In this document: positions 36,916-57,709 of the stretch, in pieces | Numbering within the stretch: position 1 is the first letter of the stretch | How the letters are laid out: each line of letters opens with the position of its first letter | DNA from: Bacillota bacterium | GTDB lineage: Bacteria; Bacillota; Sulfobacillia; Sulfobacillales; Sulfobacillaceae | Length of the DNA stretch: 64,000 nucleotides | Direction: 5' to 3' | Assembly: GCA_023511625.1 (NCBI GenBank) | Contig: JAIMBD010000012.1 | Location: 1-64,000, forward strand | Notes under the pieces: generated by a model | Databases searched by the model: none | Seen by the model: only the letters and a program-made list of their open reading frames with translations | What the model was told of the DNA's origin: nothing | Translations under genes and position numbers: made by a program

Positions 36916-37689
36916 TTACGCCTCTAATCGGTGCATTTCCTTGCGCAGGCGCTTTAAGATGCGCTTTTCCAGGCGCGAGATGTACGACTGGCTGATGCCG
37001 AGCTGGTCGGCCACCTCTTTTTGCGTGCGTTCCCGCCCGTCGCGGAGCCCAAAGCGCAGCTCGAGGATGCGGCGCTCGCGCCCGGTCAACTTCCCCAAGG
37101 CCCGCCGCAACAGCACTTTGTCGACCTCATCCTCCAACCGCTTGTAGATGAGGTCGTTGTCCGTCCCCAAAACGTCCGACAACAAGAGCTCATTGCCGTC
37201 CCAATCGACGTTTAAGGGTTCGTCGAAGGAGACCTCGTAGCGCACGCGGGCGTTTCGCCGCAGGTACATCAGGATCTCGTTTTCGATGCACTTTGACGCG
37301 TAGGTGGCGAGCTTGATGCGCCGCTCCACGTTGAAGGTGTTGACGGCTTTGATGAGGCCGATGGTGCCGATGGAGACCAGGTCCTCGATCCCGATTCCGG
37401 TGTTCTCAAACTTGCGCGCGATGTAGACCACGAGCCTAAGGTTGCGCTCGATGAGCACTGCGCGCACGTCGTCTTGGCCGAGGCTCAGAAGGTGCAACAG
37501 GTCGTTCTCCTCGTCGGCAGTCAACGGCGGCGGCAAGGCCTCGCTGGACCCGATGTAGTGGACGACCTCCTCGACCTCCTCCGTCCACTCCCCGAGCCAC
37601 CACCGGCGAAGGTCCAGGCGAGCCCCCCACCACGCCTCCCACCACTTGTGCCAGCGACGGGAGAGTTGTTCCGCGCGGTCCTGGATCAC
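36916..37689 (-). CDS. sigE: RNA polymerase sporulation sigma factor SigE (pro-form)
   Basis: A 257-residue mother-cell sigma factor made as a precursor. From [12 protein letters not shown] onward it follows Bacillus SigE closely: [65 protein letters not shown] (not contiguous copies), and region 4 [22 protein letters not shown]. The N-terminal pro-segment is about 20 residues longer than in Bacillus and rich in Trp and Arg ([20 protein letters not shown]). Start GTG 37689 overlaps the spoIIGA stop (GTGA). Confidence 0.94.
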
Positions 37690-38561
37690 GCGCCCACCAC
37701 CCCCTGGTTCCACGTCCGGCGCCGCGCCTCCGGCGCCACCAATGCCCGGTACCCGCCGCGGGGCGAAAGGGGGCCAACGGCAAACCCGGCCATCACGGGT
37801 ACCAGCTCCTGCCAGGCCCCGGCCCCATCCCAGGCCCAGGCCCGGTCCACTGCCACCACCGGCATCTGCCCCGGACCGGCCACCGTCGCGTACCGCACCA
37901 CCCCAGCCCGCTCCCGCCACCGCTCGGGCGGAGACCCCATGCGCCCGGCCAGCACCGCCTCTGCCCACCCGCGCACCTCCTCCGGTACCCAATCCCGGAC
38001 TGCATCCCATTCCACCACCGCCACCGGCCGCCCGCTGACCGGATCGCGCAGGCGGTTTCCGCTGTCCCACAACATCGCGAGCTCCACGCGGCGGCCTCCG
38101 AGTTCCAATCGCAAAAGCCCGTAGTGGCGTATCACCGCCGCCCCGCGCGCCGACCACCGCGGCGCCCACCAGCCGACGCCCGCCACCGCCACGGCGGGGA
38201 CCCACCGGCTGGCCGCGGCGGCCCCATCGGGTCCGACCCACGCCGCCAAGGCCCAACTCAGCCCGGCAGCTCCGAGTCCCATTCCCCAAAAGGACAGCAG
38301 GGCCCGCAAGAAGCCGGGGCGCGACATCGACCCGAGCCCGATGCGCAACATCAGGCACGGCCAGACGAGTTCGAGCCAACCGGGAAACGCATAGCGGTTG
38401 CCGCGCGACAATACCCATAGGAGGGGAAGGGTTCCGGCGGCCGCCGCCGCCAGCAGCGGGCCCACCCGCACCCGCCGACCGCTCCAGCGCCCTGCCGCCC
38501 ACACCAAGGCGGCGTCCCAGCCTCCGTTGATCGCCAGCGTGGGCCATGCCCAGACCGTCAC
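37686..38561 (-). CDS. spoIIGA: sporulation sigma-E factor-processing peptidase
   Basis: A 291-residue membrane-bound aspartic protease that cleaves pro-sigma-E. The N-terminal half has five or so helices; the C-terminal domain contains [17 protein letters not shown] (about 172-188), whose DSGN is the catalytic aspartate motif. Start GTG 38561 follows GAGGGGGG by 7 bp and gives the expected beginning in a helix; an ATG nine codons upstream is possible. Forms an operon with sigE. Confidence 0.9.
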
Positions 38562-40119
38562 GGAAGAGCCCCCCTCGTGGTATCTCATGGATATGGCGCA
38601 GGCCGAGTCTGTATGTCTTCCTGCCCGTCGGCCCCGGCGCCGTCGGGTACTGATTGTAGGGACGAGGGCGTAAAAACCCTGTCACTTCGGCCAGTCCGGC
38701 CCCAAGAAGTGGACGACAAAACCCCTGGGACTCCGCCTTGCCCCCCGGCATTTGCCCATGGAACCGGTAAGCCGCGCCGCCGAGGGCTGCTTGCTCGACG
38801 GGACGCGCCGCAAAGGACGCCGGACTTTCGGGCCGGAGGGCGCCTCGTGACCAAAAATGCGGCGGCCGAAGCCCGAGATTTCAGTCCCCTCGCTTCCGCC
38901 CAAAGTGCCGAGGAAAGAACCCCGTGAAAACGTTTGCTAAAGTTGCGGTGGCCAAAAACGCGAGGCGGCGCGCTGGCAGGCCGGCTTCTGAATCGTAGGC
39001 GCTTCGCCTAAGGGCTTGGGCTCGCCATCGGGATGGGCACGTGGGCTATGGCCGGGAGGGTGCAGTAGATCGTCAGCGAATGCGTTCCCACGCAAAATGG
39101 ACCTGGCGGTTGGGGCCGTCGTGGCGGGCAAGAGCCGCCGTCGTACTCCTTATGGCCCCGTTGATAACAGAATCGCCCGACGTATTCACGCGCGGCCCGG
39201 GCGTCGCGGCGATCAGGCGCAGGCCACGGTTGACCGCGGTGCGTTGGCGCCAGGGTAAAACAGTGGCCCGTGACGGCAACCCCACCAAGGCATGGGCCGC
39301 GAGCACATCCGGGCGATGGTGTGGGGCAATTTGACCCGTCAACCCGAGCGAACGCATCCGTGCCGAGCGTGTAGCAAAGCCAATCTTTTGGAGATCGGCC
39401 GGTGGCCATCCCCCCGGCGACCCCCTCGAGCGAATCCAGGGGGAAAGCTTTTACACCGCAGCCGGAAACACCGTCCCCGTCGGCGTGGTGGAACCCGGTC
39501 TTTGCGGCCATACCGATGGGCCAGTAAACGCAGAGCCCGCGGTGTAAGCCCGAAATGGGTGTCATGGTCCGAGGTGCGGTGGCGACTTCCGTCTGCCCGC
39601 AAACCCTGCGCCGGCTTCTCGTCATGAGGCGCTCCCGCCGACTCCCTCGGGACGGAAACGGCCCGAGGTCAGGACACCCGGCTGCCGGAGCGTTCATGGG
39701 TCGTCCCCGCGCTGCCCACCTGGGCTTCGCTGGCGACCTCGGTCTTTAGCTGGCGATTTCGGTCGGCGAGTTCCGTCCACCCTGCGCTCGGCCGAAAGTT
39801 CCGAGAGACGGACTTCACGCTGCGCTTCACCCGCCCTCTTGGCCTGCGCGCAGTCGAAACGGCCCAGCGGGATGAAAAGCCCCTCCGACGGGCACCGGCG
39901 AAAAACCGGGCCTCCAAAAGCCCGGCCCACCCTCCGCCGGCTGGGCCGAGGCCGCCGACTGCCCGCTCCGCCCTCTTTGTAACGGCCACTCTCAACACGT
40001 GGCGAACGGGCTGGTCGTTGGCCTGCGAGAAGGGGTCGGGGCACAAACCCCTACGGGAACGGCCGGCAGAAGGCGTTCACGGTCCTGGCATCTCTGTCGG
40101 CGCCATCGCCACCCACGAG
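38562..40119. other. 1.6-kb intergenic stretch without recognisable gene
   Basis: No frame on either strand shows a family motif, ribosome site or consistent codon use. Fragments such as a minus-strand GHKEYDGGS segment near 39130 are faintly transposase-like but too weak to call. Probably decayed DNA. Confidence 0.45.
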
Positions 40120-40175
40120 GTGTCATCCGGATGTGATGCCCGTGTCATGAAGCTGTCACGGCTGCGCCTGATTAT
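40120..40175 (+). promoter_or_regulatory. activator-type promoter with four 11-bp-spaced heptamers
   Basis: Heptamers GTGTCAT (40120), ATGTGAT (40131), GTGTCAT (40142) and CTGTCAC (40153) are spaced exactly 11 bp. Ten bases after the last, GATTAT (40170-40175) is a -10 candidate; there is no separate -35. Such phased direct repeats bind OmpR-fold activators: PhoB boxes and SARP (AfsR/ActII-ORF4) sites. The downstream gene starts at 40381. Confidence 0.7.
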
Positions 40176-40380
40176 GGGAGGTAAGGCGCGCCTGCCACTG
40201 CGGGACGGTTGCGTGGCCATGGCCGCCGCCCGGTGGCGGCACCTCCCCCGCACACAAGCCGGGGCAGTCCCCATGGGCCACAGCACCCCGGAGCCCTGCC
40301 CCGCCCCAAGCGCGCCACATCCCGGAAGAAAGTGAAGTGAGTCACCCTATGAGATTCCCCACGAAAGAGGTGCTCTGCCC

Positions 40381-43059
40381 ATGGTTCGGCTGAGGCGGAC
40401 ACTTTTGGCATGCGGCCTTGCGATCGGATGGTTGGGCGCAGGGACGGCCCCCGCCTGGGCCGCAACCGGCCCGCCGACGGCGGTGTGGATCACGGCGCAG
40501 CAAGGAGCCGAGACGGCGGTCATCGGCCCCGAGGGCTACCAGCTGACGCCGGGGCCGTTGCAAGGCGGCTATGCGCTGTCCGGCACCTGCGGCAGCGGCG
40601 CCGCATGCACCCCCGGGGTCGCCGTGACCCTAGAGCGCGGAAGTCTCGCGCTGCTGGACGGCTGGGCCCCCGCTGCCGGGGTGCTCCCGCCCCCGCTCCC
40701 CGTCCCGGCCCCGGGGGTGGGCGTTTCGACCGGCGGCTCGTCCCTATCCAGCGCCCAGCCGCTCCTCTTGGGCGGCAGTGGCACCGGGCCACCCATCGCC
40801 GTGGCGGCGACGAACCCGGTCCCGCAGGCCGGTGAGAAGGTCTCCCAACCGCGCCAGGCCGCCCACCTTCTGCCGGCCGACGCCGGGGTGTGGCCGCCCA
40901 GCACCTCCGTTCCACCGGGCTGGACCCCGTCGGTGACGCTCACCCCCAGCACGTCCTACGCCGCGGTGGGGCAGACGGTCACCTTCACGGCGTCCTACAT
41001 CCCAGGATCCAGCGCTGCGGCCACCCAGGAGTCCTACGCCATCTTTGACGAGACCACCGGGCAACTGCTGGGCACGTGCTCCAGCAACCCCTGCACGGTG
41101 ACGGCGACGAGCACCCAAACAGGTCGGCACACCTACATGGCCGTGGTCGACGAGGAGCCCCTCTCGCTCGGGGAATATGTCACCTGGTGGCCCGGGCCCG
41201 TGCCGCCCGGGATCCCGGCGGACTGGTCGCCGCAGGTGGCGCTCACGGCAAACGCCGCCGTCGTCCCCGCGGGTCAGCCGGTGACCCTCACGGCCACATT
41301 GCTGAACCCGCAGTCCGTGGGTGGGTGGTATACGGACTATTTCATTGTGGACGGGGATACGGGGCAAGAGGTGGGGCACTGCACCGACAACCCCTGCACC
41401 GTATCCGTGACCTCAAAAACTGCCCGGCAACACGAGTACTGGGCTATAGACACGAACGGAGACCCGGTGTCCCTCGGGGTGCTCGTGAGCTGGACCGGCC
41501 AGGTGGCCTGGCTCCGGCTCCAGGCGGACCCCGCGCAGCCCATCGCCGGGCAGTCGGTGATGCTGTCCGTGGTGCCGGGCGCAGGCGCGCCACTGGGGGT
41601 CGTGGCGGACCGGGTGCAGATCGTCGACTCCGCGACCGGCCAGGCGGTCCCGCTCCAACAGTGCCAGCACGCCCAGCTCACTGCCCTCGCCGGGGAGCCC
41701 CTCTGCACCGCTACCGTGTCGCAGGCCGTGGCCAGCACGCAGACCTACCAGGCGATCGTGACCTTCACGGAGAATGGGGAGCAGCAGGCGGACGAGTCCG
41801 CCCCCCTGACGGTAACATGGGCTGCGCCCCAGGTACCGTGGCTGACGCTCACGGCCCACCCGGCGCAGCCCACGGCCGGCCAGGCGGTGACGCTGACGGC
41901 AGCGGTGGCCAACGGCCCGGCCGCCGCCAACTTGGTCCACAGCCCCTGGACCCTGCAGATCGTGGACTCCGCGACCGGCCAGGCACTCGCCAGCTGCGGG
42001 GACAGCACCCAGACCTGCACCGCCCAGGTGTCGCAGGCGGCCGCCGGATCGGCCAGCTATGCCGTCGACCTGACCACGCAGGCCGGCATCGCAGCGACGT
42101 CGGCGTCGCTCACCGTGGCCTGGGCGCCGGCGCCGGCCTCCTGGCTGACGCTGACGGCAAGCCCGGCGCAACCGACCGCCGGCCAGGCGGTGACGCTGAC
42201 CGCCGCGCCGGGGCCAGACATCCCCCAGGGCATCCAGATCTGGAGCTTGACGTCCGTGCGCTGGCAAATCGTGGACACCGCCACCGGCCACGTCGTAGGG
42301 CAGTGCTTTGAGACCGCCCGCTGCACGGCCACCGTGTCGCAGGCCTCGCCGGGGCCGCACACGTACCAAGCGGTTCTGGACCTGCCGCAGTTGTTCGTCG
42401 CCCAGGGCCTGGCGCAGACCTGGGCCTCGCCGTCGGTGACGGTGACGTGGGCCGCGCCCCAGGTGCCGTGGCTGACGCTGACCGCAAGTCCGGCCCAGCC
42501 GGCGGGCGGTGCGCCGGTGACCCTGACGGCCACCCTCAACCTCTCCCAAACCAACCCGTGGGCGTTCGCGCTCCTCTCCTGGAACCTCGCGATCACCGAC
42601 ACCACGACCGGGCAGACCGTGGCCACGTGCGACCACCAGCCGACCACATGCACCGCCCAGGTGACACCGTCGGGGACGGGGTCCCAGACCTACCAAGCGA
42701 TCGTCACCGCCTCCGGCCTGGGGTCGACGCAGACGGACGCCTCGGCGCCGGTGACCGTGACCTGGCCCGCCCCGAGCCCGTGCGACGAATGGGTGGGCGC
42801 AGGGCAGACCTTGGTGCTGGGGCTGGCACCGCTGCCGGCCTGTGACGGCGGCCCCGTCCAGGTGACCGTGGGACCGGGAGGGCTTTTACTCATCTTGGCG
42901 GCCCCGCCCAACGGAGGATCGGCCTCCAGCGCCGCAGGGGGTCTGGCGGCGGGGCCGCTGGCGCAAAGTGGCCTCCCGTTGCTGGTCGGAAACCCCGCCG
43001 CGGGCATCTCGGCGGGCGGCGCCCGGGCGTCCAGGCTCGTCCCGGTGCCGGCACGATAG
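40381..43059 (+). CDS. large secreted protein with six cysteine-paired Ig-like repeats
   Basis: An 892-residue protein with a signal peptide ending near APAWAATG. An N-terminal module (about 30-96: PPTAVWITAQQGA ... LERGSLALLDGW) and a C-terminal module (about 801-846: CDEWVGAGQTLVLGLAPLPAC) are shared with the protein at 53334-55190. Between lie six Ig-like repeats (about 183-270, 282-372, 376-481, 486-582, 587-692, 697-796), each with a T-x-GQ-x-V-T-L strand, an I-V-D-x-x-T-G-Q turn and a cysteine pair that could form a disulfide (for example GTCSSNPCTV). RBS AAGAGGTG. I know of no named family. Probably a surface or matrix protein. Confidence 0.8.
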   Translation: MVRLRRTLLACGLAIGWLGAGTAPAWAATGPPTAVWITAQQGAETAVIGPEGYQLTPGPLQGGYALSGTCGSGAACTPGVAVTLERGSLALLDGWAPAAGVLPPPLPVPAPGVGVSTGGSSLSSAQPLLLGGSGTGPPIAVAATNPVPQAGEKVSQPRQAAHLLPADAGVWPPSTSVPPGWTPSVTLTPSTSYAAVGQTVTFTASYIPGSSAAATQESYAIFDETTGQLLGTCSSNPCTVTATSTQTGRHTYMAVVDEEPLSLGEYVTWWPGPVPPGIPADWSPQVALTANAAVVPAGQPVTLTATLLNPQSVGGWYTDYFIVDGDTGQEVGHCTDNPCTVSVTSKTARQHEYWAIDTNGDPVSLGVLVSWTGQVAWLRLQADPAQPIAGQSVMLSVVPGAGAPLGVVADRVQIVDSATGQAVPLQQCQHAQLTALAGEPLCTATVSQAVASTQTYQAIVTFTENGEQQADESAPLTVTWAAPQVPWLTLTAHPAQPTAGQAVTLTAAVANGPAAANLVHSPWTLQIVDSATGQALASCGDSTQTCTAQVSQAAAGSASYAVDLTTQAGIAATSASLTVAWAPAPASWLTLTASPAQPTAGQAVTLTAAPGPDIPQGIQIWSLTSVRWQIVDTATGHVVGQCFETARCTATVSQASPGPHTYQAVLDLPQLFVAQGLAQTWASPSVTVTWAAPQVPWLTLTASPAQPAGGAPVTLTATLNLSQTNPWAFALLSWNLAITDTTTGQTVATCDHQPTTCTAQVTPSGTGSQTYQAIVTASGLGSTQTDASAPVTVTWPAPSPCDEWVGAGQTLVLGLAPLPACDGGPVQVTVGPGGLLLILAAPPNGGSASSAAGGLAAGPLAQSGLPLLVGNPAAGISAGGARASRLVPVPAR

Positions 43060-43080
43060 CGACCGCAGGCGGCGCCGTAC

Positions 43081-43118
43081 GTTAGGGGGCATGGGGCCAC
43101 GGCCCCATGCCCCCTAAC
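43081..43118. terminator. bidirectional hairpin terminator
   Basis: A perfect 17-bp stem (GTTAGGGGGCATGGGGC and its complement) closed by CACG lies between the convergent genes ending at 43059 and 43187. The + strand then reads CCCTTTCG. It can serve both directions. Confidence 0.8.
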
Positions 43119-43186
43119 CCTTTCGCGGCCGCCACGCCAGGCCGTCGCCGGCGCCGGCCGGCCCAGGCCCGCTTGCCCCGTGCGGC

Positions 43187-46100
43187 TTAGGACCACGGCA
43201 TGCCGAGCCGCCGGTACCACGCCTCCGCCGAGTCCGCCCACCGCCGCCGCTCCGCCGGATCCTGCACCACCGCGCTCAGCAGCCGCTCGCAGCGTGCCAC
43301 CTCCGGCAGGGCCCCCATGGTCATGAAGGTGGCTCGTGCAGCCTCGATACCTGCGACCGCCTCATCCTCGGACGCCGCCAACGCATGCAGGATCCGGAGG
43401 TTCATCGCGGTTCCGAAGTGGTACCCGTCCCGCTGCGCGATCCGGAGCCCGTGAGCCGCCGCCTCCCGGGCGCGGTCCGGCCGCCCCGCGTCCCGCAGCG
43501 CCTCCGCCAAGTAGGCGTAGGCTCGGTCCAGCAAGATGCGGAATCCTAGCCGCGATCCCAGCGTCACCGCGCGCTGCAGAAGGCCCACGCCGCCCTCCAC
43601 GTCCCCGAGCCGGGCCACCGGCAGGCCGAGGAAGATCAGCGCGATGTATTCCAACGCGTCGTGGTCGCCAGCGCGCAGCGCCGGAAGGAGGCGCCGGCCC
43701 ACGTCGACTGCGCGGGGCCAGGCCTCCTGCTGGGTGTACACGGTCAGGGCATGCAACTTCCCCAGCACCGGCACCATGGGATGCCGCGCGGCGTCCGCTC
43801 CGGCGTCGAGTGCCGCGAGGACCGCCTCGGCCTCGGCGAACCGGCCCAAGGTGGCCAGGGTGCTGGCCCACGTGCCTAGGCACTGGGCGTGCCAGAGCGC
43901 CACTCCGCCTTGCGCCAGCAGGGGGGCGCTGGCCTCAAACTCGACCGCCGCCCGCCGCAAGTCGCCCGCCAACGCATGCAACTGGGCAAGCCGGAGCCGC
44001 ACCATGCCCTCCACCCCGGGCTTGCCGATCCGGCCCGCCCAGGGCACGATCCGCTCCAGGACCTGGGTCGCTCGCTGGAGCTGCCCCTGGATCATCAGGC
44101 CTTCGGTGCGGCGGGTCCACCACGCCACCTGCTGCTCGCCACTAGCCTCGTCGACGGCGTCGATCTCAAGCCGCTGCACGATCTGCGCCGCCTGCCGCGG
44201 CGCCGTGTGCCAGGCAAGCAGGGCCAGCCGCAGCCGCAACTCGACCCACCGGCGGCGGCGATCCTGCGTGACGGGCAGCCGCTGCAGATAGTCCGACGCC
44301 TGCTCCAGCCAACGCATGGCCTCGGCGAACCCCCCCGCCTGCTCGGCGGCCCCGGCCGCCTGCACGGCCCACCGGGCGGCGTCGTCCCACAATCCTGCCT
44401 GTTCCGCATGGTACGCCAGGCAGGCCGCGTCCCAGGCGCCGGCGGCGACCTCGTCCAGCTCGGCGAGAATGCGCCGATGCAGCACATGCCAGGCCACCTG
44501 CGAGAGCTGCCGGCCGGCGACCTCCCGGACCAAATCGTGGCACAGACTGGTCTGAACGCCTCCCAGCCGCCCGTAGATCAGGACCCGGTCGTCGGCGTAA
44601 CGCGCCTCTTGCACGATCCCCCGCCGCAGCAACTCGTGCCAGGCCGCTAGGGCAAGCTCCTCGGACAAGCCCGCCACCCGCCGCAGCAGTTCAAAGGCCG
44701 GCGGGGCCGGGAAGGCGGCCAAGGCGTCGACCATCGCCCGGGCCGGGGCCGAGATCCGGCCGAGCCACGCCTCCACTGCAAGGCCGATGGCGTCCGCCGG
44801 CACCGCCCCCAGCGGCGGGGCGGTCGGTCCCTGCTGCGCCAGCTCCTGCAGCAGGACCGAGACAAACAGGGGATGGCCCGCCGTGCGGCGCCAGACCTCG
44901 TCGGCCTGCTCCACGCGGGCGTTGGGCGCCACCGCCGCCACCAGGCGCCGCACCTCCTCCTGCCGGAACGGCGCCAGCGGCACGCACCGCGCTACGCCAT
45001 CGCGCGCCCAGTCGCCGATCAGCCGCCGGTACTCCCCGCCGAGCTCGTCGGGCCGCACGCTGACCAGTACAGTCACCTGTGGCAGGTCCGCCGCCACCAG
45101 ATGAGTCAGCACTGCCCACGACGCGCTGTCCGCCCACTGCATGTCGTCAATCGCCAGCACGACCCGCCCGCCCTGGGCCGCCCACCCTTGCGCCATCGCC
45201 TCGCACAGCTGCCGGGTCCGGTCGGGCGCGTGGGTGTCCGGTTCCCGATCGCCGACAGCCACGCGGAACTCCGGCACCAGCCATCCCAGCGCGGCCCGGT
45301 GGGGGTCTGCCAACCGTTCCAGCACCGCCCCGTCGAGGCTCCCCCGCACGAGGGCCGCCCACGGCATGAACGGGATCCCCGAAGTCGTTTCATAGCAACA
45401 CGCCCATGCCACCCGCCCCTGCGGGATCTCGCCCCCGGCGATCGCCTCGCAGACATGCCGCAAAAACCGCGTTTTGCCCATGCCGGCCAGCCCTTCCACC
45501 ACCACCAGCCGTGGGGACGGGCCCTGGGCCGCCTGGAGGGCCTCCAGCACCGCACCACCCGCGGGATGCCGTTCCACCCAGGGCGGCTCCCATCCCCGCC
45601 GCGCCGGCAGCTGGCCCACCCGCCATCCCCCTCCGGCGGCGCCGGGCGCGGCCTGAGCGGTCGGCCGCTGGCGCCTGACCGGGCTCGCATCCCGGCGGAT
45701 GGCGTCGGCCAGGGCCACGGTCTCCTCCGTCGGATCCACCTCGAGTTCGCCCCGCAGGCGCTCCTGCCATTGCTCGAAATGCGCCAGAGCCGCCGCGCGG
45801 TCGCCTTCCCGCCAAAGTCCCAGCATCATCCAACGGTGAAAGCGCTCCTGCCAGTAGTCGACCCGGAGGGCGGCCATGGCATGCCGGCGGACGGCCGCCC
45901 AGTCGTCCTGGGCCGCCTCCATCTCGATGATTGCGTCCCAGGCATCCAGCACCCGCGCCTCCCAGTGGTGGCGCTCCTGGCGCAGCCACGCCTCATAGCC
46001 CTCCGCGCCAGCCAGATCGAACCCGCTGAGAAACGGGCCCCGCCACAAGGCCACCGCGTCCAGCAAACGCCCGTACCGGTCTGCGTCGTCGCGGCCCCCG

Positions 46101-46423
46101 ACGGGGTCCAGGAGGGCAGTGAACCGGGTCAGGTCCACCACCACCTCCGGCCCGGCCCCCCATCCCACCGCCTGGCGGTCCACGTGAATCGGCCACGTCG
46201 GAAGCCGCCGTCGCAGCCGGTACAAGGTCGTGTTCAGGCGCATGCGTCCGTCAAAATCGACGCCCCCGTCCCACAGCAGGTCGGCCAGCTCCTCGCGCGT
46301 GAACCGCCGCTGCGGCTGCGCCGCCAAAAACCACAGCAGTGCCGCCGCGCGAGGGGAGCCGATGGCCACCGGCGCCCCCCCATACGTCACCCGCGGCGGC
46401 CCCAATAGGTCGATCCGCAGCAT
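43187..46423 (-). CDS. SARP/BTAD-type transcriptional activator with AAA ATPase and TPR domains
   Basis: A 1078-residue regulator. Residues 1-95 form an OmpR-type winged helix (LRIDLLGPPRVTYGG, then REELADLLWDGG and NTTLYRLRRRL); 96-245 the bacterial transcriptional activation (BTAD) domain (ending FEQWQERLRGELEVDPTEET). An AAA/NACHT-like ATPase follows with Walker A GLAGMGKT (311-318) and Walker B VVLAIDD (421-427), then TPR-like helical repeats (about 600-1060). AfsR-family proteins have this layout and bind 11-bp-phased heptamers. RBS GGAGG 11 bp before ATG 46423. Neighbouring promoters carry such repeats, so it is a prime candidate regulator of this island. Confidence 0.88.
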   Translation of the reverse strand: MLRIDLLGPPRVTYGGAPVAIGSPRAAALLWFLAAQPQRRFTREELADLLWDGGVDFDGRMRLNTTLYRLRRRLPTWPIHVDRQAVGWGAGPEVVVDLTRFTALLDPVGGRDDADRYGRLLDAVALWRGPFLSGFDLAGAEGYEAWLRQERHHWEARVLDAWDAIIEMEAAQDDWAAVRRHAMAALRVDYWQERFHRWMMLGLWREGDRAAALAHFEQWQERLRGELEVDPTEETVALADAIRRDASPVRRQRPTAQAAPGAAGGGWRVGQLPARRGWEPPWVERHPAGGAVLEALQAAQGPSPRLVVVEGLAGMGKTRFLRHVCEAIAGGEIPQGRVAWACCYETTSGIPFMPWAALVRGSLDGAVLERLADPHRAALGWLVPEFRVAVGDREPDTHAPDRTRQLCEAMAQGWAAQGGRVVLAIDDMQWADSASWAVLTHLVAADLPQVTVLVSVRPDELGGEYRRLIGDWARDGVARCVPLAPFRQEEVRRLVAAVAPNARVEQADEVWRRTAGHPLFVSVLLQELAQQGPTAPPLGAVPADAIGLAVEAWLGRISAPARAMVDALAAFPAPPAFELLRRVAGLSEELALAAWHELLRRGIVQEARYADDRVLIYGRLGGVQTSLCHDLVREVAGRQLSQVAWHVLHRRILAELDEVAAGAWDAACLAYHAEQAGLWDDAARWAVQAAGAAEQAGGFAEAMRWLEQASDYLQRLPVTQDRRRRWVELRLRLALLAWHTAPRQAAQIVQRLEIDAVDEASGEQQVAWWTRRTEGLMIQGQLQRATQVLERIVPWAGRIGKPGVEGMVRLRLAQLHALAGDLRRAAVEFEASAPLLAQGGVALWHAQCLGTWASTLATLGRFAEAEAVLAALDAGADAARHPMVPVLGKLHALTVYTQQEAWPRAVDVGRRLLPALRAGDHDALEYIALIFLGLPVARLGDVEGGVGLLQRAVTLGSRLGFRILLDRAYAYLAEALRDAGRPDRAREAAAHGLRIAQRDGYHFGTAMNLRILHALAASEDEAVAGIEAARATFMTMGALPEVARCERLLSAVVQDPAERRRWADSAEAWYRRLGMPWS

Positions 46424-46542
46424 GTCGATCCCCGCCTCCGCTTCCCGCTACCGCCTCCATCCCCCATCCCGTCTCGCAGGGACGTATCGGCCACCCTCGT
46501 GCGGCCGGTCTCACCGACCGCGTCCGACACCCCTTGCCTGCC

Positions 46543-46551
46543 ATTGTATCA
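46543..46551 (-). promoter_or_regulatory. extended -10 promoter of the SARP gene
   Basis: On the minus strand TGATACAAT (TACAAT with TG extension), 120 bp upstream of the start codon; GAGACA 18 bp upstream is a weak -35. No 11-bp repeat array is seen here, so the gene may be expressed constitutively. Confidence 0.5.
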
Positions 46552-46694
46552 AAATGATGGCAAGTCTGTCTCCAATTCCCACCCCTCGTGCGCCAGGTCC
46601 CGCGCGAAGCCCCGGCATGCCCGGTATGCATGGCCCCCAGCACCGGCAGCCATTTATCCGCAGGGGGCGGAGCAGGGCCGCGGCCCCCGAATGC

Positions 46695-46727
46695 GACGCG
46701 CGGCGGGCCTTTCGTCCGCCGCGCGTC
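46695..46727 (-). terminator. hairpin after the S53 peptidase gene
   Basis: A perfect 12-bp stem (GACGCGCGGCGG/CCGCCGCGCGTC) with a 9-base loop, 39 bp past the stop codon of the minus-strand peptidase gene. There is no T tract, so termination is likely but not certain. Confidence 0.55.
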
Positions 46728-46765
46728 CGCCGAGCCCGAACCCGGTGCAGATCGGGAGCCCCGGC

Positions 46766-49700
46766 TTACGGGATGCCGGCTGTCTGCTGCAGCTCCCCGG
46801 CCACGCCGCTGGCGACCGCATCGAGGCCACCCATCACCCAGCCCGCGTGCCAAGGCCCGTGCTGGGCCAGATAGGACGCCGTCGCTGCGGGGAGCGCCTG
46901 GGGTCCGGTCAATAGGATCGGTAGCTGGTACTCCCCCGCGAACGGGCCGGCGCTCAGCGCGTCGACAAAGGTGCCGCCGCCGCGGCCGTCCGCCGCCACC
47001 ACAAAGCCCTGCGCCTTGGGGAAGTAGGCGGCCGCAATCGCCGCGGCCGTCCCGTCGCGCGTCGCCCCGGCAATCCGGGTGACGGTCACCCCGGGCAGAG
47101 CCTGCAGCGCCGCCTGCAGAGCGCTGGAGACCGCGTCAGGCCCGCCGAGCACCACGATCTGGCGGATGTGCGCCGCCTGGATGAGGCTCCGCACGGCTGG
47201 CGGCACCGCGGCCGTGGCACCGGTCACCAGCGCCAGCGGTGCAGCCTGCATGTCCAACACCGGGCTCGCTGCCAGGGCGTCCACCATCGTCACGCCGTTG
47301 GCCACAAACAGCGTGGTCGCATCCGTCAGCCCATGCTGCGCAAGGTACTGGTCCACCAGGGCCGCCGTTTGGAACCGGTCCGCCCCCTCGAACTGGCGCA
47401 CCACCGTCAGGCCCTCCTGCTGGAGGGCGAAGACCACGGCATCCGAGATGGCGGCCGGCCCTCCGATCACGTACACCGTCGAGGCGTGCAGGGCGCGGAT
47501 CGCCGCCAGCACCGCCGGGCTCAGGCTGCCGGCCTCGGTCAGGAGGATCGGAGCATGTAGGGCCCCGGCCAAGCCGGCCGCCGACAGCGCGTCCGGGCTC
47601 GGACCGCCCTGGCCGGCGTTCGCCAGTACCACCGCGGAAGCGCCGTCGGGGAACGCCGCCTCGGCCGCCAAGATGGCGGTGCCGATCCGGTCGTTCCCGG
47701 CGATCCGCGGGACGCCGACCACGTCGGCGGCCGGGACGACCGCGAACAGGGTAAAGTGGGGCGTGGTGAACGCCAACGTCGTTCCGTTTAGCGTCCACGT
47801 CGGCAGCAGCTGCCAGGCGTCGGTCAGCGGGTTCCAGAACACCACGGCCGGCGGCGACGGCAGGGCGGCGTCCGTGACCGTCACCGTGGCGGGGGCGGCG
47901 AGCGGGCCGACGGGGTCGCCGGTCTGCGGGTCCGTGGCCGTGATCGCGAAGAGCAGCGCACCGGGGGGTGCCGCGGAGACCGATTGCGGCAGCGCCACCG
48001 TCGTCGACACGGTCAGCAAGACCAATCCGGAGACCGCTCCGGCCGGCACCGACACCTGCAGGGTGCCGCCGTTCGAGAGGCTCGCCGAGACTGTCCCGCC
48101 GCGCTGCCCGGAGATGGTGGCCGTGACCGTGCCGGTCCCACTCGGTGGCGGAGCCGGGGCACTGGACCCACCGCCACCACCGCCGCCCCCGCCGACGATG
48201 GGCGCGCCGCCACCACCGCCGCCACCACCGCCCCCCGTCTTGGGGTAGCCGATGGTCAGCGGGACCGAGGGGGAGCACACGGCGCCGCTGGCACCGGCAT
48301 TGCACACCGCCACGGTGGCGGTTCCCTCCTGGAGCGCGCCCGGCAACCCAAGGACGATCTGGGACGCCGTCCAGTCCACCGCCGGGTCGGCCCCGTACAC
48401 CGCGTAGACCGCCGCAGTGGTGGCACCAGCCGGCAGTTGGGCGAACTGGACCCACCCCGTTGGCGGGCCGAACGCGGACCCCGCGATGGTCAGCGTCCCG
48501 CCCGGCGGCACCGGCTGGGGTGTGACCTGGGCAATGGAGGGGACCACCGGGGTCAGCGCGTAGGGCCCCGCAGAAAGCGCGGCGTAGAGCTTGCCAACGT
48601 CCACGGCGCCGAGGCCGGTGACGGGGTTCCACTCGCCCGGGGTCACCGCGTAGGCACCGTTCCACCCCGCGGAGGCCTGGAAGAAGTCACCAGGATCCGC
48701 CTTGGCGAGGGCGTACAGGACCGGGTTGAGCGATCCCAGCCGCTGGCCGCCCAGCAGGGTGAAGAGATCCCCCACGTACCCCGCCCAGGTGGGCGCGGCA
48801 GCGCTGGTCCCCCCGGAGGAGCCCGTGCTGCCGTCCACGACGGTAGCCCAAAAGGGCGTCGTCGCATCCAAGGCGAGGTCGGGCACGCCGCGGTAGACGG
48901 CGTTGGGCACCAGGCCCTGCTGGTAGGCGGGCACCGGGAAGAGGCCGAAGCCCCCGCCCGAGGCCGCCTCCATCGGCGCGGGCGCCGTGACCATGTCCCC
49001 GTCGGGCGACCAGCCCCACTCCGACGACAGCGTGGCAGTGGCCCCAGCCCCGTACACGGCCGACTCCGTGCCGCCGACCGCCGTGACCGTAGGCAGCGCC
49101 GCGGGGAGCGTGACCTGCGGCTGCGTCGGGCTACTGGGGAAGGCGAACGCCCCCATGTCGCCCGACGACGCGACGACCGTCACGCCCTCGATCGCCAGCT
49201 GGTCTGCGACCTGCTGATATGCGGCCACGACCGCAGCCGACGGCGGAGTGGCAAAGCCCCAGGAGTTCGACAACACGTCCGGAGCCACCTCGGCCGCCGC
49301 CTCCCACGCGGACAGGAAGGTCCCGTTGGGATTCTCGGCGATTACGACGATGCGCGCGCCGGGATCGGTGGCCATGACCCGCTCGATGTCGAGCTCTAGC
49401 TCCTCCGTCCAGTTGGGCACGTACCCGCTGGGGACCAGGCCCGCAGACGAGGGCTCGTCATGTTCCTCGATGAGCGGCATGGGCAATCCGTATTGCGTGG
49501 CATAGGCCTGGATGTCCGACGAAAGGGATTGGCCCGATAAGGTGCTTCCCTGGGTGTAGCTCGCCCCGGCGATGATCGCCACCGTCGCCGGCGGACCCGC
49601 CTGGGTGGCCTGGCTGACCACCCCCGTCGCGTCGTACAGCGCGTTCCCGGTGGCGGGGTCCAAGGGGTCAAGATTCACCGTAGGGCCGGTGACCGTCACC

Positions 49701-51112
49701 GACACCTGGGCCAGGTACACGAAGCCCGTGGGCCCGTTGACCGGCTGGAGGGCCACCCACATGGGGCCGCTGTACGGTGCGCCGAGGACCGTGGCGAGGC
49801 GCGGTGCGTCGGCGTTGTTGAGGAAGTAGCTCGGCACCGTCAGCGTGATCCCTGTGGTCTCGATCCAAAGCGGCGGCACACCCGTCGGTAGCCCGCCCTG
49901 CGGGACCGAGACCGTGGCCGCCAGCGAGGCCGGCAACGAGGGCAGGGTGTCCAGGACCTCCTGGCCCGTGGGTACCGTCGCCGGCAGGTGCGCGTCGGGC
50001 TGGGCCGCCACCGGCTGCCCGAAGGTGATGGGGAACCCCACAACAGATCCGTCTGCGGAAAGGTAGAGCAAAATCTCTACCGATTCCGACACCGAATCGG
50101 CCACCTCAAGGATTGCGCGCCCTTGGGCATTGGTAGTCGCGAACGCCACAGGACTGGGACTGGCGGTTAATATATCGGCAGGGATGTATCCCCCACCCAC
50201 ACTGATGGACGCACTCGGAAGCGTATTCGGTCCCTGGTATCCGGCGGGGTAGGCTTCGGAGACCCCCACCTTTTGGTTGGCCACCGGCTGCCCGTTGTAC
50301 ACCACCTGGATCGTCACCGCGTCCCCTTGGGGGTTCGACGCGGGTGACGTGGGATAGAGGTATTGATAAGGCGCGGAGGGGTCGGTGGCGTTGAGGACCT
50401 CGACCGCGTACCCCGAGGATCCGGAGGCCCCCGCCGTCTGCAACCGGGCCGCCTGCAAAGGGGCCTGCATGGTGACCACCTGCGCCGGCCGGGGGCTAGC
50501 GCTCCCCGCAGGCGCGACGGTGGGGCGGTCGGAGAGCCCGCGGATGGCCGTCACGTACGGCGCGAACGCGGCGTCGAACGAGACCGGCCCGTCGGGGGCG
50601 AAGAACGGCGTGCCATCCGGTGCGACGTAGTTGCGGATCTGCGTCCCGAAGGTCGCGTCCACCGTCGCCACCGGCGCCGTGGCCTGCACCGCGAAGCCGT
50701 TGTCGGCCGTGCCGACCGCGGTGAATCCCCGGCCCGCGAGGTACTGCTCTACGCCCATGACCACCGGGGGCGGCGGGCCGAACTCTTGCGCCACCTGCTG
50801 CGGGGTCAGGAACTGCCGGTAGTCTGGGGATCCGGGCGTGCTCACCGCCTGGGCGTAGGCGTGAAAGCCGGGGCCCGGCTTGAGCAGGATCGTCACCCGC
50901 ATCGACTGGGTCGCCGGCGCCGCCGCCCCGGCGGTCGCCGCCGCCATGGCGCTCGGCGCCGCCTGCACGACGACACTGTACCCAGCCGGCGCCAGGGGCG
51001 CTGGGTCCGCCCCGGCGGCGCGGACGGGCGCGCCTGCGACCGCCAGGATCCAGGTTACGAGACTGAGCCAGGCCCCCCGCCAGGCCCAACGCCGCCAGCC
51101 GCTCAGTTGCAC
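46766..51112 (-). CDS. secreted S53 (sedolisin/kumamolisin) peptidase with three cell-wall-binding type 2 repeats
   Basis: A 1448-residue exported serine-carboxyl peptidase. Signal peptide about 1-34; pro-kumamolisin domain about 55-195 (SPDYRQFLTPQQVAQEFGP); an insert of about 300 residues with Ig-like character; catalytic domain about 500-845 with Glu571/Asp575 (EELELD), Asp652 (SSGDMGA) and Ser770 (GGTSAAAPTW), plus calcium-site WNPVTGLGAVD; an IPT/TIG-like domain (about 858-930); glycine-rich linkers; and three CWB2 repeats (last 310 residues). The tetrad is complete. Such enzymes work at acid pH. Start GTG 51112 behind GGAGAG; ATG 51148 is possible. Confidence 0.87.
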   Translation of the reverse strand: MQLSGWRRWAWRGAWLSLVTWILAVAGAPVRAAGADPAPLAPAGYSVVVQAAPSAMAAATAGAAAPATQSMRVTILLKPGPGFHAYAQAVSTPGSPDYRQFLTPQQVAQEFGPPPPVVMGVEQYLAGRGFTAVGTADNGFAVQATAPVATVDATFGTQIRNYVAPDGTPFFAPDGPVSFDAAFAPYVTAIRGLSDRPTVAPAGSASPRPAQVVTMQAPLQAARLQTAGASGSSGYAVEVLNATDPSAPYQYLYPTSPASNPQGDAVTIQVVYNGQPVANQKVGVSEAYPAGYQGPNTLPSASISVGGGYIPADILTASPSPVAFATTNAQGRAILEVADSVSESVEILLYLSADGSVVGFPITFGQPVAAQPDAHLPATVPTGQEVLDTLPSLPASLAATVSVPQGGLPTGVPPLWIETTGITLTVPSYFLNNADAPRLATVLGAPYSGPMWVALQPVNGPTGFVYLAQVSVTVTGPTVNLDPLDPATGNALYDATGVVSQATQAGPPATVAIIAGASYTQGSTLSGQSLSSDIQAYATQYGLPMPLIEEHDEPSSAGLVPSGYVPNWTEELELDIERVMATDPGARIVVIAENPNGTFLSAWEAAAEVAPDVLSNSWGFATPPSAAVVAAYQQVADQLAIEGVTVVASSGDMGAFAFPSSPTQPQVTLPAALPTVTAVGGTESAVYGAGATATLSSEWGWSPDGDMVTAPAPMEAASGGGFGLFPVPAYQQGLVPNAVYRGVPDLALDATTPFWATVVDGSTGSSGGTSAAAPTWAGYVGDLFTLLGGQRLGSLNPVLYALAKADPGDFFQASAGWNGAYAVTPGEWNPVTGLGAVDVGKLYAALSAGPYALTPVVPSIAQVTPQPVPPGGTLTIAGSAFGPPTGWVQFAQLPAGATTAAVYAVYGADPAVDWTASQIVLGLPGALQEGTATVAVCNAGASGAVCSPSVPLTIGYPKTGGGGGGGGGGAPIVGGGGGGGGGSSAPAPPPSGTGTVTATISGQRGGTVSASLSNGGTLQVSVPAGAVSGLVLLTVSTTVALPQSVSAAPPGALLFAITATDPQTGDPVGPLAAPATVTVTDAALPSPPAVVFWNPLTDAWQLLPTWTLNGTTLAFTTPHFTLFAVVPAADVVGVPRIAGNDRIGTAILAAEAAFPDGASAVVLANAGQGGPSPDALSAAGLAGALHAPILLTEAGSLSPAVLAAIRALHASTVYVIGGPAAISDAVVFALQQEGLTVVRQFEGADRFQTAALVDQYLAQHGLTDATTLFVANGVTMVDALAASPVLDMQAAPLALVTGATAAVPPAVRSLIQAAHIRQIVVLGGPDAVSSALQAALQALPGVTVTRIAGATRDGTAAAIAAAYFPKAQGFVVAADGRGGGTFVDALSAGPFAGEYQLPILLTGPQALPAATASYLAQHGPWHAGWVMGGLDAVASGVAGELQQTAGIP

Positions 51113-51311
51113 GATAGGACTCTCTCCTCCTTTGTCATGGTTCGTCATGGATACCTCGGCATCGCACGGGGCCCCGGAGGCCCGGCCGGGGCGGCGCGGG
51201 GGCGGCGCATCCGCCGAATCCCCGCCCTGCCTGCTCCGCCTTGGAAGCCACGAGCCGCCACGCGCCACACGGCATCGTCACACCGGGCGACCCCGCCCGA
51301 CACCGCCGTAG

Positions 51312-52949
51312 CTAGGACCCCACCCAGTACACGGCCTGCGGCGTCGTGAGCGTATTTGGCACGGGCTGCCCGCTGGGGTCCAGGACCTGAGCTTGGAACA
51401 GTTCGGTCACAACCTGAACCGGGGGAAGGTACACGACGTCCACCGTGGTCTGGTAGACGGCCTGGTAGGTCGCCGTGGTGATAGGACCGATGGTCTGTGA
51501 GTAGGGGAAGCCCCCGCTCCCGGTGATCTGCAGCGAGTCCCCCCCAAGCAGGTCGGTCGCCGTCACCGTCAGGGTGGTCGTGCCCGTCGGGTCGTTGTCC
51601 CCGACTATGGTCGGGTTCGCGCTCAACGACAGGGTCGGTAACGGAATCCACTGCACGTTGACGGGCGTCGCCTCGGCCACGGGGCTACCGGAGCCGGTTA
51701 CGATCTCCGCTGAGTAGGTCACCGTGCCACCGCTGGCCGGGCCGCTGTCGGTGATGGCGAAGGACACCGACTGGGTGTAGGTGGTCACCGTCTCATCCTG
51801 GTGCACCCCGTCGGAGCCCGTGATCTGCACCACATCGCCCGCCGGCACATCGGTGGCGGTGGCGGTCACGGTGGTGGGGGAGCCCACCCACAGAGTTTGC
51901 GGGTTGGCTTTCAACGCGATGCTAGGACTCGGCGGAGGGCTCGGCGAGCCACCGCCGCCACCCTGGAATGCCTCCGAGACCCACTCCACGGACACCGGCG
52001 CCGAGACCGCCACCACGCCCGGGGCGTTGGGCATCGCGCCCGGCGGCCCGATGTCGGCCTCGAACGTCTGGCTGGTGGCGATCGGCTCACTGACCTGCAC
52101 CACGCAGGGGGCAGTGGACAGGCAGCTCGTCACCAGGCTGTTGCTGGTCGTATCGACGATGTTCACGGCCCAGCTGGGGTTCGCCGCCGGCACGGCCGTG
52201 GCCGTCAGCTGGCTGGCTTGACCGACCGGCAGGATGGTGGGGTTGGCCGTCAGCGTCACCCCAGTCGGCGGAGGACCGGACGGAGGCGCGCCGGACTGGG
52301 TCGGGCCCGACGGCGGGCCACCGGGTGACGACGGCCCGGTAGGCGACAGCGGGCCGGACGGCGCTGTCGGTTGCGATGGCGCGCTGGGCAGCACCAGCGC
52401 CACACTGACCCCGTCGATCTTCTGCCCGTCGGTGTAGGCCTGCCCCTGCCCCGCGTAGGGGTCGGCGCTCGGCCCCCACGCCCGGTGCACCGGCGGGGCG
52501 TTCGCCAGCGACGTCAGGGCGCCCAAGGGCTCACCCGCCAGGAACGCCCGGAACATGGCCGCCGTCTGCAGGTAGGTAGCGCCCCCGAGTTGGACGACCA
52601 CGTCCCCCTCGCCGGCCAAGTCCTGACTCAACGCCGGGTCGGTCGCCGCCGTCCCGCCGAGCACCACCACTCCCGACCCCGGAGGCACCGCGCGCCACTG
52701 GTCGGCAAACACGACATGGGCGGCCGGGATGCCTGCCGCCAGTGCCGTGTGGTAGTCCTCCAAGTCAAACGCGCGCGTCACCACGACCTCAAGACTCTGC
52801 GGATTGAGCCCGAGGCTGGTGATCGTCTGGGAAGCCCACCCGCCTGCCGCGAGCACCGGCGCAGACACAGGGGCTCCGATTTCCAACGCCACCCCTAGCG
52901 CCACCCCCGCCAGCAGGGCCGCCGGGCGGCTTCGTGTGCGTCTTCTCAT
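51312..52949 (-). CDS. secreted protein with CWB2-like N-terminal domain and Ig-like repeats
   Basis: A 545-residue exported protein. A signal peptide (about 1-35) is followed by a domain (about 40-170; LEVVVTRAFDLEDYHTALAAG ... VVVLGG ... FRAFLAGE) that resembles a single cell-wall-binding type 2 fold, a 45-residue Pro/Ser/Gly linker, and three Ig-like repeats (about 230-330, 345-430, 435-545). The first Ig repeat has NIVDTTSNSLVTSC and a second cysteine, like the large Ig-like proteins beside it. Transcribed from the promoter at 53025-53081 and probably continuing into the S53 gene 199 bp downstream. Confidence 0.75.
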   Translation of the reverse strand: MRRRTRSRPAALLAGVALGVALEIGAPVSAPVLAAGGWASQTITSLGLNPQSLEVVVTRAFDLEDYHTALAAGIPAAHVVFADQWRAVPPGSGVVVLGGTAATDPALSQDLAGEGDVVVQLGGATYLQTAAMFRAFLAGEPLGALTSLANAPPVHRAWGPSADPYAGQGQAYTDGQKIDGVSVALVLPSAPSQPTAPSGPLSPTGPSSPGGPPSGPTQSGAPPSGPPPTGVTLTANPTILPVGQASQLTATAVPAANPSWAVNIVDTTSNSLVTSCLSTAPCVVQVSEPIATSQTFEADIGPPGAMPNAPGVVAVSAPVSVEWVSEAFQGGGGGSPSPPPSPSIALKANPQTLWVGSPTTVTATATDVPAGDVVQITGSDGVHQDETVTTYTQSVSFAITDSGPASGGTVTYSAEIVTGSGSPVAEATPVNVQWIPLPTLSLSANPTIVGDNDPTGTTTLTVTATDLLGGDSLQITGSGGFPYSQTIGPITTATYQAVYQTTVDVVYLPPVQVVTELFQAQVLDPSGQPVPNTLTTPQAVYWVGS

Positions 52950-53024
52950 AGGTGTTTCGCCTTTCTTCGCCTCGCTTCTGCGTTTCTCCGTGAAGGCGGC
53001 GCCGCGGGGCAGCCGCCCGGCGTC

Positions 53025-53081
53025 ACCGTAGCACCCCTCCGTGACACCCGCATGACACCCACTCTGGCAGCATCGTGACAG
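53025..53081 (-). promoter_or_regulatory. activator-type promoter with phased heptamers, minus direction
   Basis: Reading the minus strand: CTGTCAC (53081-53075), CTGCCAG (53070-53064), GTGTCAT (53058-53052), GTGTCAC (53047-53041). Within each pair the spacing is 11 bp and between pairs 12 bp. Ten bases after the last heptamer comes TACGGT (53030-53025), a -10 candidate. Same layout as the sites at 40120 and 53128. The gene starts at 52949. Confidence 0.65.
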
Positions 53082-53127
53082 CGCCGTCCTCTCGCACAGC
53101 GCCGGAGCCGCGGAGCACCCCCCCGCA

Positions 53128-53183
53128 ATGTCATGGGAGCGTCATGGACGTGTCATCGTGCGGTCAGGGTGGGGCGCTACGAT
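53128..53183 (+). promoter_or_regulatory. activator-type promoter with four 11-bp-spaced heptamers
   Basis: Heptamers ATGTCAT (53128), GCGTCAT (53139), GTGTCAT (53150) and CGGTCAG (53161) are spaced exactly 11 bp; ten bases later stands TACGAT (53178-53183). It drives the + gene at 53334 and is back-to-back with the minus promoter at 53025-53081. Confidence 0.7.
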
Positions 53184-53333: not shown

Positions 53334-55190
53334 ATGACCGTGACCGGTTTGCGACACCCCCGCAGGTGGTGGGCCGCTGCGGGCGCCGCAGGGCTCCTGG
53401 GCCTCATCGCCGCGCCGCCCGTGCGGGCGGCGGGGCCCGCCCCGCCCACTGCCGTGCTGATCACCGCCCAGCCGGGCGCCGCTCTGTGGACGGTCGGGTC
53501 CACCGGAATCCAGGAATTCAACGGCGAGTTCACGGAAGGCTATGAGGCCCCGGGCGCATGCACAGCAACCTGCGCGATCGACGCCCAGGTTGACCTCCAT
53601 AGCGGGGCATTGGCCTTCGTGGATGGGTGGACAGGGAGTGGGTCGGTACCGGGGACCGATAGCGCGGCCGGGTCCTCCACCCCCATCGGTACAGTGACCC
53701 CGCCCACCTCGGTGGCGGCGGCCGGCCTGGCATCATCCGCGGCCGTGGCGCCCCGCCCTGCGGACGCCACCACCTCCTACCAGTACACGCTCCAAGCCAG
53801 CGCCTCGGCCGCGCTCGTAGGACAGTCCGTGACCCTGACTACCCAGGTCACGTCGCCCAACGCCTTTAGCCTCTGGACCGGCGCACCGTACACCATCGTG
53901 GACACCACCACCGGCCAGACCGTGGCCCAGTGCAGTGCAGGGGCCTGTTCGGCAACGGTGACCGCCACCACCCCGGGCGCGCAGACCTACCAGGCGTTCG
54001 GCGGCCAGCTCGCCCTGTCGGCGCCGGTGACCGTCACGTGGTACCCGCTCCCCTACACCCTCCAGGCCACGACGTCACAGACGGTCGTGGGCCAGTCGGT
54101 GACGCTGTCCACCAGCGTCTCGTCCCAGAGCTACCTGGCCGCGTGGACCCTGGGCCCCTACGCGATCGTGGACACCACCACCGGTCAAACCGTGGCCCAA
54201 TGCTCGCCGGGCCCGTGCTCGGCCACCGTCACCGCCAGCACCCCGGGGGCCCAGACGTATGTAGCCGAGACGGGCAAGACGCAGCTGTCGCCCCCGGTGA
54301 CCGTCACATGGGTTGCCGCCGCCGTGCCCGTTTCGCCACCCCCAGGCATCGGCCCGGTGACGGCGGGCCAACCCGTGTCCTGGCTGACGTTGACCGCGAG
54401 TCCCTCCCACCCGATGCTGGGGCAGCCTGTCTACCTGGCCGCCGCAGCCGACCCGGTGCAGTTGGACAACCAGCTGCTGCTCAAAGGGCAGTACGGGTCG
54501 TTCCGCCTGCAGATCGTCAACACGTCGACGGGCCAGGTGCTCGCAACCTGTTCCGATAGCGTCACGTGCGACGCGTACGCGATGCAGCCAGGAGGGACCG
54601 CGACCTTCATAGCCGAGCTCTCCGCCGAGGCGGTGCAGGGGGGCGCGGTCGCCACCGTCACCTCCTCCCCGGTATCGGTCAGCTGGTCCCTGCCGGAGCT
54701 GCTTCCCGCCCCAGGGTCCGGCACGCAATCGGGCCCCCAGACCAACGCAAGCTCGCCGACCCAACCGCAGAGCTCCGGGGCATCGGGTGCGTCGGGGTGC
54801 GATCTCACGGTGGGGCCGGGACAGGTGCTGGTGATCGGCCTGACCCCACTCCCCGCCTGCCCGGGCGGCACCCCCACCATCACCGTTGAAGCCGGCGGTG
54901 TGGTGTGGATCCTGTCCGCCCTCCCGGATGGGGTGCCTGCCAGTTCCGGTGCACAAGGCGGCGGCGCAGATATAGTCGGAACGCCCAACGCTGTCTGTGG
55001 CCCATCCGGCGGAGGGCCGGCCTGCCAGGCCTGCCTATCCGCAGGCACGGCCGGTAGCGGGGGTGAAGGGTTGCTGAAAGAATCCGGTGGCTGTGAGGCT
55101 ACCTTCTCGACGAACGCGGCCGGCGGAGGCGGCGGTGCAGGGATCGCACTCGGCGGCGCGGGAGGCAAAGTAGCCGGCCCCACGGGCTGA
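53334..55190 (+). CDS. secreted protein with three cysteine-paired Ig-like repeats (paralogue of 40381-43059)
   Basis: A 618-residue exported protein. Signal peptide ends near APPVRAAG. The N-terminal module (about 36-99: PPTAVLITAQPGA ... LHSGALAFVDGW) and C-terminal module (about 489-533: CDLTVGPGQVLVIGLTPLPAC) match the protein at 40381-43059. Ig-like repeats at about 149-236, 239-326 and 349-451; the first two are nearly identical around IVDTTTGQTVAQC. The tail (550-618) is rich in Cys and Gly. ATG 53334 follows AAGGAGG by 12 bp. Function unknown; a cell-surface or matrix component is inferred. Confidence 0.8.
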   Translation: MTVTGLRHPRRWWAAAGAAGLLGLIAAPPVRAAGPAPPTAVLITAQPGAALWTVGSTGIQEFNGEFTEGYEAPGACTATCAIDAQVDLHSGALAFVDGWTGSGSVPGTDSAAGSSTPIGTVTPPTSVAAAGLASSAAVAPRPADATTSYQYTLQASASAALVGQSVTLTTQVTSPNAFSLWTGAPYTIVDTTTGQTVAQCSAGACSATVTATTPGAQTYQAFGGQLALSAPVTVTWYPLPYTLQATTSQTVVGQSVTLSTSVSSQSYLAAWTLGPYAIVDTTTGQTVAQCSPGPCSATVTASTPGAQTYVAETGKTQLSPPVTVTWVAAAVPVSPPPGIGPVTAGQPVSWLTLTASPSHPMLGQPVYLAAAADPVQLDNQLLLKGQYGSFRLQIVNTSTGQVLATCSDSVTCDAYAMQPGGTATFIAELSAEAVQGGAVATVTSSPVSVSWSLPELLPAPGSGTQSGPQTNASSPTQPQSSGASGASGCDLTVGPGQVLVIGLTPLPACPGGTPTITVEAGGVVWILSALPDGVPASSGAQGGGADIVGTPNAVCGPSGGGPACQACLSAGTAGSGGEGLLKESGGCEATFSTNAAGGGGGAGIALGGAGGKVAGPTG

Positions 55191-57536: not shown

Positions 57537-57709
57537 GCCCATCACGCCCCCTGCCTGGGTATATTTGCGCCGGCGGGCTCTCGGGCCCCCGGCTTAACCG
57601 CGTTCCTCCACCGTGCCCTGGTAGGCGGACCATCGCCCCCCGCTCCGGCGCGCTCGCCCAACCAACGCCGGTGACCTGGTAAACTTGGAAACCCTGGCAC
57701 ATCCCCGAC

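Follow-up and report, generated by a model that had tools for sequence, protein, structure and literature searches.

Heptamer arrays upstream of secreted protein genes in a Bacillota lineage, most likely operated by a locally encoded SARP activator

The island described here lies in a window of 64,000 nucleotides (the whole stretch of DNA that was analysed) from a Bacillota lineage. It is a real and small regulon, encoded at one locus, whose operator is most likely a SARP. Three of its promoters carry arrays of heptamers in front of a -10-like hexamer (Table 1). These arrays are very probably the operators of the large SARP encoded between them, which would activate gene A, gene E and genes D-C.

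Table 1. Features of the island, with positions in the window
Feature	Position	Strand	Description
Array A	40120..40159	+	GTGTCAT CCGG ATGTGAT GCCC GTGTCAT GAAG CTGTCAC, 11-bp steps, followed by GGCTGCGCCT and GATTAT (to 40175); proposed SARP operator; conserved in G001
-10-like hexamer GATTAT, promoter A (predicted)	40170..40175	+	CATAAT at the equivalent place in G001
Gene A	40381..43059	+	892 aa, secreted, repeated Ig-like domains
SARP gene	43187..46423	-	1078-aa activator of the large SARP type, with Trans_reg_C, BTAD, AAA_16 and TPR; proposed array reader
Conserved ATTTTGATACAATG upstream of SARP gene	46542..46555	-	Extended -10 (TGATACAAT), no array
Gene C	46766..51268	-	S53-type (kumamolisin-like) protease, three CWB2 cell-wall-binding repeats
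Gene D	51312..52949	-	545 aa, secreted, beta-rich; first gene behind array D
-10-like hexamer TACGGT, promoter D (predicted)	53025..53030	-	
Array D	53041..53081	-	From 53081: CTGTCAC GATG CTGCCAG AGTGG GTGTCAT GCGG GTGTCAC, steps 11, 12, 11 bp, followed by GGAGGGGTGC and TACGGT
Array E	53128..53167	+	ATGTCAT GGGA GCGTCAT GGAC GTGTCAT CGTG CGGTCAG, 11-bp steps, followed by GGTGGGGCGC and TACGAT (to 53183)
-10-like hexamer TACGAT, promoter E (predicted)	53178..53183	+	
Gene E	53334..55190	+	Homologue of A, secreted and Ig-like

The host is a member of the family that includes Sulfobacillus (Bacillota). No rRNA gene was found in the assembly by a 16S search; the family was assigned through a relative of the same family (G005), which carries the plasmid of S. 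acidophilus DSM 10332 at 100%. The window encodes the sporulation sigma factor SigE (36916-38751, minus strand; TIGR02835 above cut-off) in the C-terminal part of a 611-aa ORF. Reading this ORF as a fusion was rejected, since no family matches outside the C-terminal part and the first ~390 residues are probably not coding (a spurious frame).

The gap between the last heptamer and the hexamer is 10 bp in arrays A, D and E alike, with the -10 hexamers of all three promoters being predictions. According to the original prediction, each promoter had four heptamers at 11-bp steps, then 10 bp and a hexamer. Arrays A and E are as described, and for array D the 10 bp and TACGGT are correct but the spacing is not 11/11/11: its TGTCA cores lie 11, 12 and 11 bp apart, which puts the upstream two units one base off phase relative to the downstream two. 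When the whole window was scanned for four TGTCA-like cores at strict 11 bp, only the plus-strand arrays A and E matched, and array D was the sole addition after the spacing was relaxed to 10-12 bp.

Proteins A and E are homologous, with protein A showing a Pfam Big_3_5 match below cut-off only. The model of protein E contains tandem Ig/FnIII-like beta-sandwich domains (mean pLDDT 62, domains mostly 80-93), and Foldseek matched it to Ig/FnIII chains. The listed ORF start of gene E (53133) falls within the array; the start given in Table 1 has a ribosome-binding site 5' of it and fits the promoter. Protein C has a pro-kumamolisin domain and its three CWB2 repeats in Pfam, and its translation contains S53-like motifs ending in GGTSAAAP. 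Genes D and C are separated by 43 bp and look like one operon behind array D. The claim that all three arrays precede genes for secreted Ig-like proteins is best borne out for A and E; protein D has a signal-peptide-like N-terminus and a second half that is beta-rich in a low-confidence model. No biosynthetic genes were found under the arrays, the neighbours being the protease and Ig-like proteins. A PAS-GGDEF-EAL protein, a cyclic-di-GMP enzyme (28616-31402, minus strand), shares the window with this surface-protein island.

The N-terminus of the SARP matched Trans_reg_C with 26.9 bits (cut-off 26.2) and BTAD with 71.5 bits (cut-off 22.1), and an AAA_16 match plus a weak TPR match were also found in Pfam. 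At E<=0.001, AfsR was the only PDB sequence match, and R69 and T65 of the SARP align with the recognition-helix DNA contacts R92 and T88 of AfsR. Upstream of the SARP gene, ATTTTGATACAATG is a perfect 14-mer common to this genome and a same-genus genome, G001, and this upstream region has no array in either species, suggesting that the SARP is probably made independently and that its activity would be set by the NTPase/TPR half. An inverted repeat, TGCCAT...ATGGCA (46540-46567), overlaps the SARP extended -10; it is not kept in G001 and is a possible operator for another regulator.

In the structure of AfsR with RNA polymerase, each of the 11-bp repeats, at -40 to -30 and -29 to -19, is occupied by a single SARP protomer; the upstream one lies on the -35 element, and R92 contacts T-38/T-27 (PMC10936776). 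When the afsS -10 is taken as -12 to -7, as inferred from the construct in PMC10936776, the distance from the start of the last repeat to the -10 is 17 nt, which equals the 7+10 of the arrays here; the usual figure of 8 bp is a count from a differently framed heptamer. AfsR also shares the ODB-BTAD-NTPase-TPR architecture, the 11-bp direct repeats, the lack of a good -35 and the two contact residues. The afsS promoter of Streptomyces coelicolor, a target of the large SARP AfsR, differs in having two repeats instead of four or five, and here the heptamer is GTGTCAT, the targets are secreted surface proteins and the host is in Bacillota. PimR and further regulators of the SARP-LAL type likewise use several tandem heptamers with 4-bp spacers near their own gene (three CGGCAAG for PimR), but the heptamer, the C-terminal half and the antibiotic-cluster targets are different, and the principal operator of PimR lies clear of the -35 box (PMC5930380). 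The island shows the features by which the SARP family is recognised, namely an OmpR-type DNA-binding domain with BTAD, 11-bp repeats in the -35 region, a fixed distance to the predicted -10 and the contact residues; the usual role in secondary-metabolite control, which is not strictly defining, does not apply here.

The SARP ortholog in G001 is 77% identical (contig C90). Upstream of the G001 ortholog of A (82%) lies CTGTCAT/GTGTGAT/CTGTCAT/CTGCCAC, followed by 10 bp and CATAAT, and upstream of the ortholog of D (53%) lies an array of five heptamers that ends in AGGTGAT, followed by 10 bp and TATCGT. The heptamers and the 10-bp step are conserved between the two genomes, and the spacers and flanks have changed. 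Gene C is missing from G001, where an E/A-like gene occupies its place.

Both this genome (G000) and G001 encode another SARP, with 44% identity to the first, which adjoins a gene for a 2.5-kaa secreted cell-wall protein with CWB2, TIG and Big_1 domains. Upstream of this gene, a different array word, C(C/T)GTA(A/T)G, is repeated at 11-bp steps and ends 10 bp before TAGCGT (CCGTTTG/CTGTATG/CCGTAAG/CCGTATG in G000; AAGTTTG/CTGTAGG/CTGTAGG/CGGTAAG in G001). The paralog-type motif was found nowhere else in G000 or G001. The letters of the arrays and the SARPs thus diverge together, which makes the island SARP the likely reader of the island arrays. This genome encodes one more BTAD protein, its third (796 aa; G000:C3, L182:3636-6026, minus strand), and no TGTCA array lies beside it.

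OmpR-family regulators bind similar tandem sites, and another response regulator of this family, encoded elsewhere, might read the arrays with the SARP as a bystander. Three relatives indeed have TGTCAT direct repeats between a sensor-kinase gene and a small secreted ORF downstream (L022, L023 and L028, near position 1501), where they look like the box of a two-component system separate from the SARP arrays. It is therefore location and covariation, and not the letters alone, that identify the reader. Such a foreign reader is improbable, given that G000 and G001 have both the site and the SARP ortholog, a combination seen in 0 of the 59 other relatives, and that the arrays of the paralogous SARPs keep this geometry but differ in their letters.

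Less probable still is that the arrays are Pho boxes, read by a PhoB/PhoP-type response regulator, and that the genes behind them answer phosphate limitation. PhoB boxes are of like form, with 7-bp repeats (CTGTCAT), 4-bp spacers and thus 11-bp steps, their readers are OmpR-fold winged-helix proteins as well, and a gene for a phosphonate-binding protein lies near the island (56724-57545). However, this genome encodes a pstBSCA operon and phoU, and the pstBSCA promoter carries CTTAACC-N4-CTTCACC-N4-CTTAACC at 11-bp steps instead (L183:2008-2050, G000:C3), which, judged by its letters, is the probable PhoP box of this genome, of the form CTT(A/C)ACC. No TGTCA array was found at pst, at phoU or anywhere else in the genome, and this, together with the different pst box, makes phosphate control of the arrays unlikely. 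In addition, a receiver domain is absent from the Pfam matches of the island's own regulator. Covariation with the paralog and the AfsR-type geometry favour the island SARP over PhoB/PhoP as the putative reader.

The arrays exceed chance expectation. With heptamer profiles trained on the other arrays, every held-out array scored 32.2 to 41.6 bits, compared with a best control score of 17.1 bits over ~832,000 positions on the two strands of 417 kb sampled from this genome. Besides 60 relatives, the searches covered the 2.59-Mb assembly, which is 97% complete. A model built from five arrays on sequence alone recovered the three window sites in the whole assembly with E-values of 8e-12 to 3e-9, which are not independent because the model was built including these sites; the absence of any further match at E<=1 elsewhere in the assembly is informative. 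In G001 the matches of this model were confined to the orthologous locus, and the remaining 59 relatives gave nothing better than E 0.04. Mismatch searches concurred that the arrays are confined to these two loci. Occurrence of the same motif at random genome positions, which the original prediction had set against itself, was looked for with the array model and the mismatch search and was not found; the restriction of the sites to this locus and its ortholog in the sister species supports its proposal that a few genes for extracellular proteins form a dedicated regulon. That the arrays are chance or structural repeats with no regulatory meaning is hardly credible: the irregular spacing of array D is all that speaks for it, and against it stand the held-out scores relative to the controls and the heptamers kept between species while the spacers diverge.

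The wider class was approached with a letter-free scan for four heptamers at 11 bp, then 10 bp, then TANNNT. In most SARP loci of the class the best hit was an array near the SARP gene or near the gene next to it, and seven loci scored 34.6-42.3 against a control maximum of 33.6 (417 kb). G016, G057 and G001:C260 fell below the control maximum and are weaker cases. Two examples belong to more distant SARPs: GTGTAAC/ATGTAAG/GGGAAAG/GTGCAAG, 10 bp and TATAGT before a LysM protein in G041, and TTGTAAC/CTGTAAG/ATGAAAG/GAGTGAT, 10 bp and TAGGTT in G001:C260. At residue 68 of the recognition helix, both GTGTCAT SARPs have Tyr whereas the four TGTA-type SARPs have Thr, and on these few sequences we hypothesise that it is linked to the letters of the heptamer.

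A tree was built of 35 SARPs; the 12 from this class that were usable grouped together in a single clade (99/100), distinct from the main actinobacterial group, with the G112 row ignored as partly out of frame. It could equally well prove right or wrong that the SARPs of the Sulfobacillus class, as a clade of their own, act as dedicated local switches of surface-protein islands, in which each paralog has its own heptamer in a fixed frame (11-bp steps and 10 bp to the -10) and residue 68 (Tyr with GTGTCAT, Thr with TGTA-type heptamers) can be matched to the letters of the repeat. A universal SARP rule was rejected, as SARP genes from other phyla show no more than a mild enrichment of the 11-bp period upstream (9 of 42 loci) and G112, G099 and G106, which are distant SARP loci of the class, have 11-bp periodicity but no exact 10-bp step. 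In G112:C50 (L131:3386-3425), four TTGGGAT units at 11-bp steps lie between the SARP gene and a divergent gene for a giant Ig/TIG-type secreted protein, at a distance to a -10 that does not fit 10 bp. In G099:C93 (L130 8355-8316, minus strand), TTTGTCA/CCTGTCG/ACTGTTG/TCTGTCG lies upstream of the SARP gene with no clear -10.

According to a recent review, SARPs are found exclusively in actinobacteria and activate antibiotic clusters (PMC10972967); another paper places them mainly in actinomycetes (PMC10936776). A scan of genome contigs found SARP-like proteins in other phyla as well, in this case distant SARPs only, and the novelty here therefore lies in the geometry, the pairing and the targets and not in the mere presence of a SARP.

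In the proposed mechanism, each 11-bp repeat would hold one SARP protomer next to its neighbour, which makes four here and five at one promoter of G001, and those nearest the -10 would replace the -35 element and recruit RNA polymerase with the main sigma factor, like AfsR at afsS. The SARP would in this way turn on gene A, gene E and the putative D-C operon, and hence the Ig-like proteins and the S53 protease with its cell-wall-binding repeats. It would itself be produced from its array-free promoter, and the switch would probably be set by the NTPase/TPR half sensing a signal.

If this is true, a clade of Bacillota uses SARP geometry to drive a secreted protease and Ig-like proteins, and the mechanism would have a wider distribution and a broader range of uses. 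Because their heptamers differ, the paired paralogs would offer a small direct test of how the recognition helix chooses DNA and predict orthogonal activator-promoter pairs, and the SARP paralogs would be a natural set for reading the SARP-DNA specificity code. For the target proteins, which are otherwise uncharacterised, the regulon would give a handle on the timing of their production.
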